Source: Shinella kummerowiae (GTDB taxonomy: Bacteria; Pseudomonadota; Alphaproteobacteria; Rhizobiales; Rhizobiaceae). From it: a stretch of 64,000 nucleotides of DNA. The notes under the pieces were generated by a model. The model saw only the letters and a program-made list of their open reading frames with translations. It made no database searches and was not told where the DNA came from. A program made the translations under genes and the position numbers. This document shows positions 1 through 64,000 of this stretch, piece after piece (position 1 is the stretch's first letter; every line of letters starts with the position of its first letter). The stretch is taken from NCBI RefSeq assembly GCF_009827055.1, contig NZ_WUMK01000004.1, positions 434,001-498,000 of the forward strand. Reading direction: 5' to 3'.

Positions 1-1155
1 GACCGCAAGCTCGAGCGCGGCGCCGACGTGCTGATCTGCACCCCCGGCCGCCTGCTCGACCATTGCGAGCGCGGCAAACTCCTGATGACGGGCGTCGAAA
101 TCCTCGTCATCGACGAAGCCGACCGCATGCTCGACATGGGCTTCATCCCGGATATCGAGCGCATCGCCAAGCTCATCCCCTTCACCCGCCAGACGCTGTT
201 CTTCTCGGCCACCATGCCGCCGGAAATCCAGAAGCTCGCGGACAAGTTCCTGCAGAACCCGGAACGCGTCGAAGTATCGACCCGCTCCTCGACCGCCACG
301 ACCGTGACGCAGCGCCTCGTCGCCACCCACGGCAAGGATTACGAGAAGCGCGCCACGCTGCGCGACCTCATTCGCGCGCAGGAAGACCTGAAGAACGCCA
401 TCATCTTCTGCAACCGCAAGGTCGATGTCGCGGATCTCTTCCGCTCGCTCGACCGCCACGGCTTCTCCGTCGGCGCGCTGCATGGCGACATGGATCAGCG
501 GTCGCGCACGACCATGCTGGCCAATTTCAAGGAAAACAAGCTCACGCTTCTCGTGGCATCCGATGTCGCTGCCCGCGGCCTCGATATCCCGGACGTCAGC
601 CATGTCTTCAATTTCGACGTCCCGATCCACGCCGAGGACTATGTCCACCGCATTGGCCGCACCGGCCGTGCCGGCCGTTCGGGCGCCGCCTTCACCCTCG
701 TCTCCAAGCGCGACGGTAAGTTCCTCGATGCCATCGAAAAGCTGATCGACAAGAAGATCGATTGGCTGAGCGGCGGCCTCGAAGACCTGCCGCAAGCCGC
801 CGAGAGCGAGGAGCGCGAACGGCCCCGCAACGGGCGCGATCGCGGTGGTCGTGACCGCGACCGTGATCGTTCCCGTGGACGCAACAAGGGCGAAGCCCGC
901 GCCACGGAAACCCGCATCGAGACCGTTGAGACCGAAGAGAAGGTGGAAGTCGTGAAAGCTGAACGCAAGGCGGAAGGGCGGCCGCAGAATCCCGCTCGCA
1001 ATCCGCGGGCTGCAAACCATGCCGCGCCGCGTCCGGCCAATGACGACAGCCGCGATCGCCGTAACCGCTATCGTCGCGATGAAGACGACGGCCCGACGCC
1101 GCTCGGCTTCGGCGACGAGGTCCCGGCCTTCATGCTGGTCGCCGGCAAGGCCTGA
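1..1155 (+). CDS. DEAD-box ATP-dependent RNA helicase (5'-truncated by window edge)
   Basis: RNA-duplex unwinding ATPase, probably of the RhlE/CsdA type acting in rRNA maturation or mRNA turnover in the cytoplasm. The frame is open from base 1, so the gene starts outside the window and the Walker A (motif I) part is missing. Visible helicase motifs in order: TPGRLLD (Ib), [13 protein letters not shown] (II, Walker B), FFSATMP (III), IIFCNRK (IV), [10 protein letters not shown] (V) and [11 protein letters not shown] (VI). After the helicase core comes a long charged tail rich in Arg, Asp and Gly ([16 protein letters not shown]), typical of the variable RNA-binding tails of rhizobial RhlE-like proteins. 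The specific subfamily is inferred; the DEAD-box assignment is certain. A Nudix gene follows after 9 bases. Confidence 0.95.
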
Positions 1156-1164
1156 TTTCTAAAA

Positions 1165-1578
1165 ATGCCTGTTCCCGGCATCGATGTGCCAGGCCTCGGT
1201 TGCGGCCTGGCCATTTTGCGTGAGGGCAAGCTTTTGCTCTACCGGCGCCGCAATGCGCCGGAAGCCGGTTGCTGGAGCATTGTCGGCGGCAAGGTCGACC
1301 ATATGGAACGGGCAATCGATTCCGCCCGCCGCGAGGCGCAGGAGGAATCGGGACTGACCATCGGCACGGTCGAGTTCCTGTGCATTTCCGAACAGATCAT
1401 CGAGGAAGAGCGCCAGCACTGGCTGTCGCTCATCTATGTGACGGAGGATTTTGCCGGGGAGGCCCGCGTCATGGAGCCGGAAAAGCTGCCGGAGTTCGGC
1501 TGGTTCCCGCTCGATGCCCTGCCCGTGCCCCTTTCGCGCTTTGCCTCGGACGCCGTCAAGGCGCTCCGCGTGCGTTAA
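1165..1578 (+). CDS. Nudix hydrolase
   Basis: Pyrophosphohydrolase acting on a nucleoside diphosphate linked to another group; the substrate cannot be told from sequence. The 137-residue protein has a complete Nudix box at residues 42-64 (G-x5-E-x7-RE-x2-EE-x-G-L), with REAQEESGL holding the metal-binding glutamates. An upstream YRRRNAPEAGCW stretch resembles the substrate-facing strand of MutT/ADP-ribose-type members. It starts 9 bases after the helicase stop, so it is probably co-transcribed with it. The ribosome binding site is weak. It converges on the TonB receptor gene, with a hairpin at the junction. Confidence 0.88.
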   Translation: MPVPGIDVPGLGCGLAILREGKLLLYRRRNAPEAGCWSIVGGKVDHMERAIDSARREAQEESGLTIGTVEFLCISEQIIEEERQHWLSLIYVTEDFAGEARVMEPEKLPEFGWFPLDALPVPLSRFASDAVKALRVR

Positions 1579-1584
1579 GCACTG

Positions 1585-1605
1585 GCGGTTCTGTCTCAGA
1601 ACCGC
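1585..1605. terminator. Convergent hairpin between the Nudix and TonB receptor genes
   Basis: Perfect 9-bp stem (GCGGTTCTG / CAGAACCGC) with a 3-base loop. It begins 7 bases after the Nudix stop and overlaps the receptor's stop codon on the other strand. There is no clear T tract on either side, so intrinsic termination is an inference from position. Confidence 0.5.
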
Positions 1606-3746
1606 GCGGTGGCGCCGAAGATGAAGGTGCGACCACGGCCGTTGTTGATGCCGGCGAGGTTGTCGGAAAGCCCGGAATTCGCCTTCATATAGGCCTTGTC
1701 GAAAACATTCTCCACGTTGAAGAAGACCTTGGCGTTTTCGTTGATCTGCCAGGAGGCGTGCACGTCGAACAGCGTGTAGGCGTCGACCTTGTAGGCATCG
1801 GGTTTCCCGAGGAATGCCTGTTTGCTTTCCCCGACATAGCGCATGCGCCCACCGACCGTCAGCGCCTCTTCGAGGAAGCGCATGCCGACGTCGACGGTTG
1901 CGAAATCGTCCGGCAACTGGCCGGTATCGCTCGTGGTGCCCGAGGAAGAGCCCTGCGGCTGATCGGTATCGGCAAGCGTCAGCGAGAAGCCAGCATAATA
2001 GCGCCCGGCATCATAGCCACCTTCGATTTCGAGGCCCTTCATCACCGTCGTGCCATCGAGATTGACCCAGCACGCGACGCTGCCGTCACCGGGCTCCCAA
2101 TTGGGGCAAAGCGTGCCCGTGGCATCGGTCCGGTAGGTGATGTAGTCGCTGATGCGGTTGTGGAAGTAGCCGACCTTGAGCCAGGCGGTATCGCCGGCCG
2201 CCAGCAGGTCGTCGCCCTTCAGATTGACACCCAGCTCCCAGCCGCGGCTCTGCTCCGGCACGAGGTTCGGGTTGTTGTTGACCGGGTCGGACGATCCGTC
2301 GAAGCTGTGGCCGCCCGGATAGAACATCTCGGCCGCCGTCGGCGGGCGCGAGGTGTGCGCGTAGGTGACATAGGGCTGCAGCCAATCGAACGGGCGCGCA
2401 GACAGGGTGATCTTCGGGTTGAGGTCACCGCCATGCCGCGAGATGGCGTCGCCGGGGCATGGATCGCCGTCGGGGTCGCACCCATTGGAGCCCGGCGCAT
2501 CGTAGCCGCTGATGCCGTCCACCTTCCAGTAATCGTAGCGCAGACCACCGGTCAGATCGAAAATGCCGCGCGTCAGCGTCGCCTCGCTGAAGGCGCCCGC
2601 CTTCTGCAGCGTTCCATCGGCATTGGCGCCGCGCTTGGCATTGCCTTCATATTCGTCGTGGCTATAGGCGACGCCATAGGAGAGCTTCAGCTCCGTCGCG
2701 CTGCCGAGGTCGAAATGCATGCGGTTGGTGATATCGAAACCCGTCGTCGTGTTGGTGCCCTTGCGGCCATCGAACGCCGCGCCATCGATGCTCGACCCGT
2801 CGAATTCCAGATCGGTGATGTTGAGATAGGCATTGGCCGAGAGGTCGATCAGGTCGTTGCCCGGCTTGTAGGTGTACTTGGCCGTATAGGTCTGGTTCTC
2901 GACCACCCAGTTGTAACCGGAACTGCCCGGCAGGAATTCGCTGCCGTACCAGATGCCGCCGAGTGACAGCTTGCGATCGGAATCCGGCTCGATGTTCACC
3001 TTGAACAGGCCCGACTTCGGATGCTCGTCGCCGGCGCTCGGATAGATGATACCGTCGCCGTTTTCGTAGGGGCTCTTCTTCGTGTCGCTGATTGCGCCGA
3101 CGACGCCGATCTCACCCTCGCCCATGTCCGTCCGGGCCGCCCCGGCCAGCAGGCGCGAATAGTCGAAGCCGTTCGTGCCGATACGCACGGTGGACATCAC
3201 GCCCACGTCCTTGCCCGGCAACAGCACGTCGTCGACATCGAGCGTGCGGAAGTTGGCAGCGCCCGCCAGCGTACCCATGCCCTCGGCGCCGGAAACCGCA
3301 CCACGCGACACATCCACGCCGACCAGCATGTTCTGCTCGACATAGAGCATGTTGTCGAACGTGCCGGCGTGACCCGAGAGGTTGCGGAAGGTCTGCGGCA
3401 CGCCGTCGATCATGCTGTTGACGCGGCCCATGCCCTGCAAGCCACGGATGTTGACGATGATGCCGGGCTGGTCTGCCGGTTCGCGCGTGAAGGTGCCGGG
3501 CATCGAGCGCAGCACCTGCGTCGCATTGCCGGAAAACTGTTCCTGGATTTTGACGCGGTCCGCCTTGGAGACGGCGGCCGGCACATCGACAACACCGTCG
3601 CCGTTGCCATCGCCTTCCACGTTGATCTGCTGGAGCAGGGTCGCGCCCGGCTCCTGCGCCTTCACCGGTGCAGCCGTCGCCAGAAGTGCAAGCGCCATGG
3701 CCGTGCCGGCGAGAAGCGTCGACGTGTGGAAACGATCATCTTTCAT
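1596..3746 (-). CDS. TonB-dependent outer-membrane receptor, heme/hemoglobin type
   Basis: Outer-membrane beta-barrel gated by TonB, probably importing heme or another iron source. The protein is 716 residues, usual for the family. It opens with a signal peptide (MKDDRFHTSTLLAGTAMALA, cleavage near VKA-QE), then a TonB-box-like segment (QQINVEGDG), a plug domain (IIVNIRGLQGMGRVNSMIDG) and a barrel ending in the terminal-Phe signature FIFGATARF. The segment SRPPTAAEMF followed by NNNPNLVPEQS resembles the FRAP/NPNL signature of heme receptors, which is why I favour heme. The start is placed at MKDD because GAGG lies 5 bases upstream; an in-frame ATG six codons earlier has no such site. The promoter carries a TGA-N9-TCA iron-responsive operator, consistent with iron control. 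Confidence 0.88.
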   Translation of the reverse strand: MKDDRFHTSTLLAGTAMALALLATAAPVKAQEPGATLLQQINVEGDGNGDGVVDVPAAVSKADRVKIQEQFSGNATQVLRSMPGTFTREPADQPGIIVNIRGLQGMGRVNSMIDGVPQTFRNLSGHAGTFDNMLYVEQNMLVGVDVSRGAVSGAEGMGTLAGAANFRTLDVDDVLLPGKDVGVMSTVRIGTNGFDYSRLLAGAARTDMGEGEIGVVGAISDTKKSPYENGDGIIYPSAGDEHPKSGLFKVNIEPDSDRKLSLGGIWYGSEFLPGSSGYNWVVENQTYTAKYTYKPGNDLIDLSANAYLNITDLEFDGSSIDGAAFDGRKGTNTTTGFDITNRMHFDLGSATELKLSYGVAYSHDEYEGNAKRGANADGTLQKAGAFSEATLTRGIFDLTGGLRYDYWKVDGISGYDAPGSNGCDPDGDPCPGDAISRHGGDLNPKITLSARPFDWLQPYVTYAHTSRPPTAAEMFYPGGHSFDGSSDPVNNNPNLVPEQSRGWELGVNLKGDDLLAAGDTAWLKVGYFHNRISDYITYRTDATGTLCPNWEPGDGSVACWVNLDGTTVMKGLEIEGGYDAGRYYAGFSLTLADTDQPQGSSSGTTSDTGQLPDDFATVDVGMRFLEEALTVGGRMRYVGESKQAFLGKPDAYKVDAYTLFDVHASWQINENAKVFFNVENVFDKAYMKANSGLSDNLAGINNGRGRTFIFGATARF

Positions 3747-61671: not shown

Positions 61672-61813
61672 TCGCGCATCGATTGCAATATACCAACGCA
61701 CGGCAAATCACGCAAAACTAGAAAATTGTAACCATTGATTGATTTATGAATATGTGATTAAGTTCGTCGAGATATCTTTGTCATCTGCGCTGAATTGAAA
61801 GCGGAGAGCAGAA

Positions 61814-62056
61814 ATGTTTCGCTTCCTCTTCCTTTTGCTGACGACCGGCAACATTCTCGGCAGCGTGGCCGCACATGCCCAGCCCCAGTGTCCAGTAGAT
61901 GTCGAGATACGAGAAAGCCTCGACCCGAATTGCACGCCTACAGGCAGACGGATCAAGGTCTATTGCGAGGGAAGATTGCTGACGTCCCTCTGCAAAGCCC
62001 AGAGAAAAACCAATCCAAACACGACACGAGGCTACGACTCTGGAGACGCTCCATGA
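61814..62056 (+). CDS. Small secreted four-cysteine protein
   Basis: An 80-residue protein with a signal peptide MFRFLFLLLTTGNILGSVAA and probable cleavage at AHA-QP, leaving about 57 residues. The mature part has four cysteines (C26, C40, C51, C60), enough for two disulfides, and the basic stretch TPTGRRIKVYCEGR. GGAGAG lies 6 bases before the ATG. It overlaps the next gene by ATGA, which couples their translation. I recognise no family. Its 142-base upstream gap is AT-rich, unlike the rest of the window. Confidence 0.75.
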   Translation: MFRFLFLLLTTGNILGSVAAHAQPQCPVDVEIRESLDPNCTPTGRRIKVYCEGRLLTSLCKAQRKTNPNTTRGYDSGDAP

Positions 62057-64000
62057 TGACGCCCCTGTTGTTTCGAAAACGTACCGGAACGTCTCTGCAG
62101 GCTGCACGCACCTTTATGGCGAAGAGCCTCCGCCTCATAAGCGACGGCTTCGGCTTTCTGCTGGGAAGCAGGAAACTCTATGCCTTGCTTGCCGTCGTCG
62201 CGCTCTACTATGCGGTCACAAACCGGGAAAATCTGGCCAACGTCCTCGATGACTACACACAGTTCAGGACAAGCGGAAAAATCTACATCGACAGTCCCGA
62301 AGTCTACACCCGCGAAAGGCTAGTCAATGACCGCTATGAACAGGCCGTGTGGCTGCGCGATGAAATGGCGCGCCTCGACGCTGGCAGCTATCTAAGCACG
62401 CGCATCTCGGACAGCACGAGACGAACCACCGATCTTACCCTGCGCGCAAAAGAGGGTGACAAAACAGCCGGTGAGAGTGCCGGCGACACCAATGGTAGCA
62501 ACGGAACGGGTGCGGCAGGCGCGGCTCTTCCTCAACTCGAAAAGATGCCATTCGACCTCGAACACGAGATCAAGGCGGCGACGCGTGACAAGATCCGCCA
62601 AAGCATCATTGAAAACATGCTCGACGACCGACACGATCTGATCGGCAACACGCTCGTGGCGCTTAAGTTCGACACGACGGTCATTCCCAACAGGTCCGTC
62701 GAGCGTCGCGCATTCGTGGAGGTTTCACTCGACACCGGCAACATCGCCTTCAAGTACGATGATGTCATGAATGAGTTTCCCAGCGAAAAAAATCCGATCC
62801 TCGCGGACTGCAAGGCTCGCAACCAGGACCAGCGGGTGCGATGGGAGGTCGTCCTCTATCTGTGCGGAAAATATTACGACATCCTCTCCGACCAAAGAAC
62901 AAGTCTCGGAAAAATCAACGACCTCTACACGCGATGGCTGAAGAGTATTGAAAATCGTTTGAACGCGTCTCCCAAGCGCTGCGACTCCGATCCCCAGACG
63001 AAAGAAGAGACCAGACGGGCCGTCGAGGACGGACTCGGAGCCCGAATGATCGATGTTCTAGATACGGCGGCAGACGGACAGACACAGGCAGACGCAAGGC
63101 TTTACCGGGTTATTGTCGAGCCACCATGGAGAGACATTGTCGAAATACTTGGATCATGCACGAAAGGCGCGCTGACCTTTCAAGTCGGTAGCCTGACCGA
63201 GAGTTTCATCATTTTCGACGACGACATCAAAAATCTGGACGCCTGCAATGTCGCCAGCAAACCACGGGAATGCGGTGACTACACGAGCATCTACGCGGCC
63301 TACACCTCCAATTTGCTGGCGCGCTACAAGAACCGCAGCACGGGCCAGACGGGGCATTCCGATGCGGCTTCGGGTACCTCGTTACCCCCATCCATGCAGG
63401 CGGTTTTCGACCTCATAACCAACGGCGTCATCATTGCGAAAACAGAAGAAGCGGGTGGGCAATCAAGTTTGATCATCAAGGCGGCAGCCGGGGAGCAGGA
63501 TAACTCCATCGCCAGGAATTTCACAGCGCAGATAAAATACAAAATATCCAGCGATGGGTGGTCAAGGCTCGGGGAACTATCAAACTACGCCAACACCGCC
63601 ACTGCCGGAAAGCAGGACGCAACGAAATACACCATCGTAAGATATGACAGCGGGGAATGCGCCAACTTGCGCAAAAACTGCCTTCTATACGGTTTTCCAT
63701 CGGGCTTTTTCAATTTCATCGGCCAGGTGTCCCGGATGGACAGCTTCGCCTATTCCCTGATGCCGACAAATCGTTCCAGTGCGATCTATGCTGCCCGATC
63801 TCTCGCTGATCGTGTCAGTTTCGGCATGGCACCAGCAGGCGACGAAGCGGCGGCGATTTCCTCCGAGGCGTTTCGCAGCGCATTGCGCGAAGGGTTTTCC
63901 AGCGAAACGGAAGGCATTGGCTACGGCATCGGTGAAAAAGACGCCAACCGGATAACGTTCGGATGGGTCATGAATGTCAGCGCCGTCGGTGGCGCTCGTC
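62053..64000 (+). CDS. Large membrane-anchored protein of unknown family (3'-truncated by window edge)
   Basis: A frame open from ATG 62053 to the end of the window, 649 complete codons so far, with no stop. A single membrane helix near residues 42-55 (LYALLAVVALYYAV) follows a short basic N-terminus, so the rest probably lies in the periplasm. A Gly/Ser/Asn-rich linker occurs near residues 137-160 (AGESAGDTNGSNGTGAAG). Several cysteines (SCTKGA, DACNVASK, ECGDYT, ECANLRKNC) suggest a disulfide-rich exterior. Codons such as ATA, AGA, CTA and TTA are unusual for this window and the GC content is visibly lower, consistent with acquisition by transfer. I recognise no domain. Start is coupled to the upstream small gene. 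Confidence 0.8.
   Translation, partial: MMTPLLFRKRTGTSLQAARTFMAKSLRLISDGFGFLLGSRKLYALLAVVALYYAVTNRENLANVLDDYTQFRTSGKIYIDSPEVYTRERLVNDRYEQAVWLRDEMARLDAGSYLSTRISDSTRRTTDLTLRAKEGDKTAGESAGDTNGSNGTGAAGAALPQLEKMPFDLEHEIKAATRDKIRQSIIENMLDDRHDLIGNTLVALKFDTTVIPNRSVERRAFVEVSLDTGNIAFKYDDVMNEFPSEKNPILADCKARNQDQRVRWEVVLYLCGKYYDILSDQRTSLGKINDLYTRWLKSIENRLNASPKRCDSDPQTKEETRRAVEDGLGARMIDVLDTAADGQTQADARLYRVIVEPPWRDIVEILGSCTKGALTFQVGSLTESFIIFDDDIKNLDACNVASKPRECGDYTSIYAAYTSNLLARYKNRSTGQTGHSDAASGTSLPPSMQAVFDLITNGVIIAKTEEAGGQSSLIIKAAAGEQDNSIARNFTAQIKYKISSDGWSRLGELSNYANTATAGKQDATKYTIVRYDSGECANLRKNCLLYGFPSGFFNFIGQVSRMDSFAYSLMPTNRSSAIYAARSLADRVSFGMAPAGDEAAAISSEAFRSALREGFSSETEGIGYGIGEKDANRITFGWVMNVSAVGGAR

Follow-up and report, generated by a model that had tools for sequence, protein, structure and literature searches.

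What do the last genes of the window, the 64,000-nt stretch of Shinella kummerowiae contig NZ_WUMK01000004.1 (positions 434,001 to 498,000) analysed here, contribute to the cell envelope? The window closes inside a long reading frame that follows a small gene for a cysteine-rich exported protein, and an earlier note had described the two as a coupled pair, the larger member being a 'giant' membrane-anchored protein. Reading past position 64000, as that note had proposed, we reached the stop codon at 64503 and then a third gene; the complete long protein has 816 aa, so that 'giant' does not fit. We read the three genes as a self-contained envelope module in which the long protein would serve as a receptor or scaffold for an exported, constrained micro-peptide, and put the probability of this reading at about 0.5. 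The features are as follows:

61672..61813, strand not given: AT-rich leader, 142 bp, 39% GC, between a LysR gene and small1
61814..62056, + strand: small1, 80 aa, exported, signal-peptide-like start (by eye), four Cys
62053..64000 within the window, + strand: long gene, true stop at 64503, 816 aa (1054-3504 in the coordinates of contig L002)
64556-64771, beyond the window (L002:3557-3772), + strand: small2, 71 aa, exported, C-terminal core with four Cys

The leader, the exported four-Cys protein and the ATGA overlap that joins it to the long gene (start 62053; 649 codons in the window, open at 64000) are thus as the earlier note had described them. The leader is presumed to be the promoter region of the cassette; a search of 61672..61813 for a sigma-70-type consensus found none. 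Small2 begins 52 bp after the long gene.

A constant small peptide beside the long gene

A pattern scan of genome contigs gave 16 long-protein loci. Our alignment contains 17 long proteins from Alpha- and Gammaproteobacteria, namely those of the window, Rhizobium alarense, the same-genus genome G017, Taklimakanibacter and 13 others; locus L020 (near-identical to L019), a fragment from genome G059 and a divergent protein from genome G618 were left out.

In 16 of the 17 loci, a motif scan of open reading frames (ORFs) of at least 30 aa placed a small2 gene at most 320 bp from the long gene. The motif was built after the first examples had been seen, and its tail was loosened to admit the small2 of locus L030, first spotted by eye; with the tail unwidened, the count is 15/17. 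It occurred nowhere farther away in the 271,327 bp of the 17 loci, nor in a further 149,339 bp from elsewhere. Relative to the long gene, small2 lies downstream on the same strand (5 loci), downstream on the opposite strand (10) or upstream on the same strand (1). Behind a signal-like N-terminus, its conserved part is the final ~35 aa with the four Cys, and several small2 proteins may, by eye, keep a membrane anchor.

The upstream partner is less regular. A small Cys protein (3-8 Cys) directly precedes the long gene in 9/17 loci (chosen by eye among the listed ORFs; overlap up to about 72 bp, gap up to 8 bp), and these proteins are weakly conserved, with 11-37% identity to the small1 of the window. 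The pair proposed in the earlier note therefore stands as far as small1 goes, but small2 is the more constant partner of the long protein (16/17 vs 9/17).

When the small2 core was searched among 297 genomes of the order, with up to 25 candidates scored per genome, 14 genomes returned matches at E <= 0.01 and three at E <= 1e-5: the window's own genome, G283 and G077, of which the first two also carry the long protein. Of the weaker matches that were read, the ones in G280 and G118 proved to be Cys stretches within other ORFs. Small2-like C..C..CxC stretches also occur in other ORFs at L045:1222-1764, where they are duplicated, and L043:706-1635, with the long protein not in view; these are perhaps a wider, unnamed disulfide micro-domain.

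Architecture of the long protein

The long protein is best read, from its sequence, as anchored in the inner membrane and exposed to the periplasm. A single hydrophobic helix (residues ~40-56), already reported in the earlier note, follows a short N-terminus; residues ~72-700 form a periplasmic alpha/beta region in which the model shows helices and a beta-sandwich; the C-terminal domain (~711-801, ~85-90 residues) adopts an IPT/TIG-type fold in the model. The envelope location and the coupling to a small exported Cys protein, both proposed in the earlier note, are supported.

No match was returned for the long protein of the window in Pfam, NCBIfam, PADLOC or PDB sequences, and its sole PHROG match is to a family of unknown function (E 0.14). 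None of the 17 aligned proteins reaches a named family above the cut-off. Pfam TIG (PF01833) matches one of the 17 below its curated cut-off (E 0.025) and leaves the window protein unmatched. The family is thus unnamed by the four profile libraries used, and the clear match to a well-known family that the earlier note had set as its refutation was not seen; 'unrecognised' holds for the family as a whole, but not for the C-terminal fold. In the model, those ~90 residues resemble the IPT/TIG domains of plexin/MET receptors, EBF and a Bacteroides surface glycan-binding protein, but neither the remainder of the protein nor its operon is similar to any of these.

The aligned members are 24-55% identical to the window protein, yet the alignment has 53 invariant columns. 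Many of these fall within the motifs SPxxYTRxRLxNxR, R...R....EN.LDDRHD...N.....KFD, S.PA, G.RLWR and WTS, and the charged or polar set comprises R87, R89, N92, R94, R178, R182, E187, N188, the D191-D195 block, N199, K205 and D207. Between the long genes of the window and R. alarense, the fraction of differing sites is 0.34 at first, 0.28 at second and 0.56 at third codon positions, a pattern which suggests that selection acts on the gene.

Hemolysin-type beta-sandwich proteins were listed among the closest known systems, but nothing was found in favour of a beta-pore reading of this type: the amphipathic stem was not seen, the hairpin region having a lower mean beta moment than the remaining sequence in 14/17 members and a higher one in three.

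Triceptide cassettes and the role of the module

Two further homologues connect the family to a different peptide chemistry. In genomes G059 (locus L010) and G618 (locus L065), which belong to different orders, a long-protein homologue lies 3′ of a GrrM/OscB radical S-adenosylmethionine (rSAM)/SPASM enzyme (TIGR04261; 353 and 480 bits, respectively, NCBIfam cut-off 310), directly adjacent in G059 and with one 251-aa gene between in G618. That intervening protein (L065:6613-7368), which has no Pfam or NCBIfam family, overlaps GrrM by 4 bp and also overlaps the called start of the long gene. A GrrA-like gene lies 5′ of GrrM in G618, and in G059 GrrM is overlapped by a gene for a 65-aa peptide that starts like a signal peptide and ends in FDNFNNWYNY. 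OscB cross-links Trp to an Asn or Asp, or Phe to an Asn, that lies two positions further along (PMC11002830); by eye, there are six W-x-N/D or F-x-N motifs in the G618 peptide and three in that of G059. The small2 of the window's cassette has a single F-C-N and so lacks the several such motifs of triceptide precursors. The G618 stretch yielded no ORF like small2; because the G059 homologue sits at a contig end, a small2 farther on may exist there. Overall, 18 of 19 long-protein loci are flanked by either small2 (16) or a GrrA-like gene with GrrM (2).

As in the Grr/Osc (TIGR04260/TIGR04261) cassettes for ribosomally synthesized and post-translationally modified peptides, the G059 and G618 homologues follow a GrrA-like gene and GrrM, and the proposed partner is likewise a small, exported, constrained peptide; unlike in those cassettes, the usual peptide here has four Cys and no maturase is adjacent. 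Another GrrA-like peptide, its tail rich in FPNFPNF, is encoded with GrrM in G153 (L072:570-5387), immediately behind the gene for a 1082-aa protein that carries a P-loop-like motif close to its start.

The linkage of small2 to the long gene survives rearrangement, and two kinds of exported peptide occur beside one family; this indicates a ligand-partner relation in the periplasm. We infer the partnership of small2 with the long protein from linkage. Small2, like small1 where there is one, would be exported by Sec and constrained by two disulfides once in the periplasm. In the long protein, the invariant core (SPxxYTRxRLxNxR and R...R....EN.LDDRHD...N.....KFD) might bind the small peptide, which the membrane-tethered protein would then hold or present. 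Disulfides and rSAM cyclophanes may be two ways to make such a ligand. More tentatively, and with the odds leaning against it, these loci could represent a new class of peptide-partner systems, in which one anchored family is paired by lineage with chemically different micro-peptides (four-Cys disulfide or triceptide), making the long protein a candidate receptor or scaffold for GrrA triceptides. If so, Grr/Osc-type triceptides, whose chemistry is known, would gain a partner that can be tested and a model ligand that is simple to produce; the portions of the literature on these cassettes that we consulted state no role for them and mention no component like the long protein beside them.

Several observations weigh against the receptor or scaffold reading and its triceptide extension. 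The G618 GrrA-like gene scores under the cut-off (E 6.5e-5, 23.5 bits against 31), and the G059 65-aa gene has no NCBIfam GrrA match; the G059 homologue itself is a fragment with a weak, short match (E 1e-8 to 3e-13). GrrM is present in 4/385 genomes of the class, and of five GrrM loci, G059 included, two have the long protein, whereas three show no homologue in the stretch examined; in one of these three (G710) the stretch stops 1.4 kb past GrrM. The 17 aligned loci all lack GrrM, and the window's own genome has no TIGR04261 match at E <= 1e-80. In locus L023 (Methylococcaceae), 18 kb contained no match to the small2 motif and small1 stands alone, while in three Thiohalocapsa loci the gene upstream of the long gene is not small1. 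Finally, the structural models are of medium quality (pLDDT, predicted local distance difference test, 65 and 71), so that the binding site is a guess.

Among the alternatives, a structural surface complex or adhesin, with the long protein as an Ig-like scaffold and the Cys-rich peptides as subunits or caps rather than ligands, is unlikely, though the most probable of them. The C-terminal TIG fold and beta-sandwich core are like those of adhesion and glycan-binding proteins, and a single membrane anchor with two small exported Cys proteins per cassette would suit it; yet by eye no sortase, secretin, pilus or outer-membrane gene recurs in the neighbourhoods read, and the replacement of small2 by GrrA-GrrM suits a ligand better than a subunit. 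The dense invariant charged and polar residues could instead mark an enzyme of the periplasm with the small peptide as its substrate, such as a protease or cross-linker, but no catalytic family was matched by sequence, the structures listed for the model are mostly non-enzymatic beta-sandwiches with a few glycosidase chains, and such residues could equally form a structural interface; we consider this improbable.

The earlier note had also suggested a toxin/immunity-type module, for which no evidence was found. A related idea, that small2 or GrrA is an antimicrobial peptide against competitors from which the long protein shields the producer, seems doubtful: patchy presence, low GC content at third codon positions (GC3), small exported peptides and fast divergence (25-39% identity between same-genus cassettes with flanks 92-97% alike) speak for it, but by eye no exporter or protease gene is a constant neighbour, the Cys core of small2 shows conservation instead of diversification, and a number of small2 proteins may be membrane-anchored. 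Typical immunity proteins are, moreover, far smaller than the long protein. A module for defence, against phages or otherwise, is as improbable as the enzyme reading. It would agree with stand-alone cargo at variable sites, with relatives whose sites are empty and with an AbiLi/RloA-like ATPase gene 4-5 kb downstream, but none of the three cassette proteins matches a PADLOC family, and no recurrent defence gene was seen by eye across the 17 neighbourhoods.

Distribution, origin and neighbouring genes

The long protein was found in 4/61 relatives (own genome counted), 2/21 genomes of the genus, 3/397 of the order and 3/385 of the class, one of these last a weak match (1.5e-4) that was not used; in a phylum sample of 349 genomes, it was found in the window's own genome only. 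These searches use a loose first look and may miss members. In a tree of 18 proteins (with G618), the window protein and that of R. alarense (G031), of the same family Rhizobiaceae, group with 100/100 support and G017 joins them (99/98); this tree carries a long-branch warning, G618 lying on a very long branch. Loci L019 and L020, titled Treponema denticola and Chthoniobacter flavus, are near-alike and are probably mislabelled metagenome bins, because the L019 protein groups with Thiohalocapsa.

In the window genome and G017, the cassette sits between LysR and a DUF3137 gene; R. alarense carries it in the same orientation and in broadly the same place, the interval from GGDEF-EAL to DUF3137/uvrB, where other genes intervene. 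Thirteen genomes of the genus have the LysR orthologue and 11 of them lack the cassette. Eight of these 11 show an empty site, LysR being directly followed by DUF3137 (5) or uvrB (3), and the other three have neither gene in the ~1.5 kb examined. Between the window genome and G017, uvrB is 97% and GGDEF-EAL 92% identical, whereas the cassette proteins share 25-39%, suggesting that the two cassettes were not simply co-inherited with their flanks, even though the tree places the two long proteins in one group.

GC3 is 0.67 for the long gene, 0.62 for small1 and 0.69 for small2, against a mean of 0.81 (standard deviation 0.06) for the 42 other window ORFs of at least 150 aa, a mechanically called set that includes some probable false ORFs; the long gene lies more than two standard deviations below this mean. 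The low-GC codon choice seen in the earlier note is thus borne out, and patchy presence, empty sites and low GC3 support its proposal of horizontal gain. The pair is not conserved at this site throughout Rhizobiaceae with normal codon use, the other finding that the earlier note had set as its refutation, being present in 2/21 genomes of the genus.

Beyond small2 lie the DUF3137 gene on the opposite strand (Pfam 26.5 bits, cut-off 26.1) and then uvrB, named by eye and by its conserved place. The low-GC AbiLi/RloA-like ATPase gene (AAA_21; PADLOC AbiLi, 1.2e-88) lies in the L002:8066-10079 region; the next gene is RloB-like but interrupted by a stop codon, and both of its open pieces match RloB.
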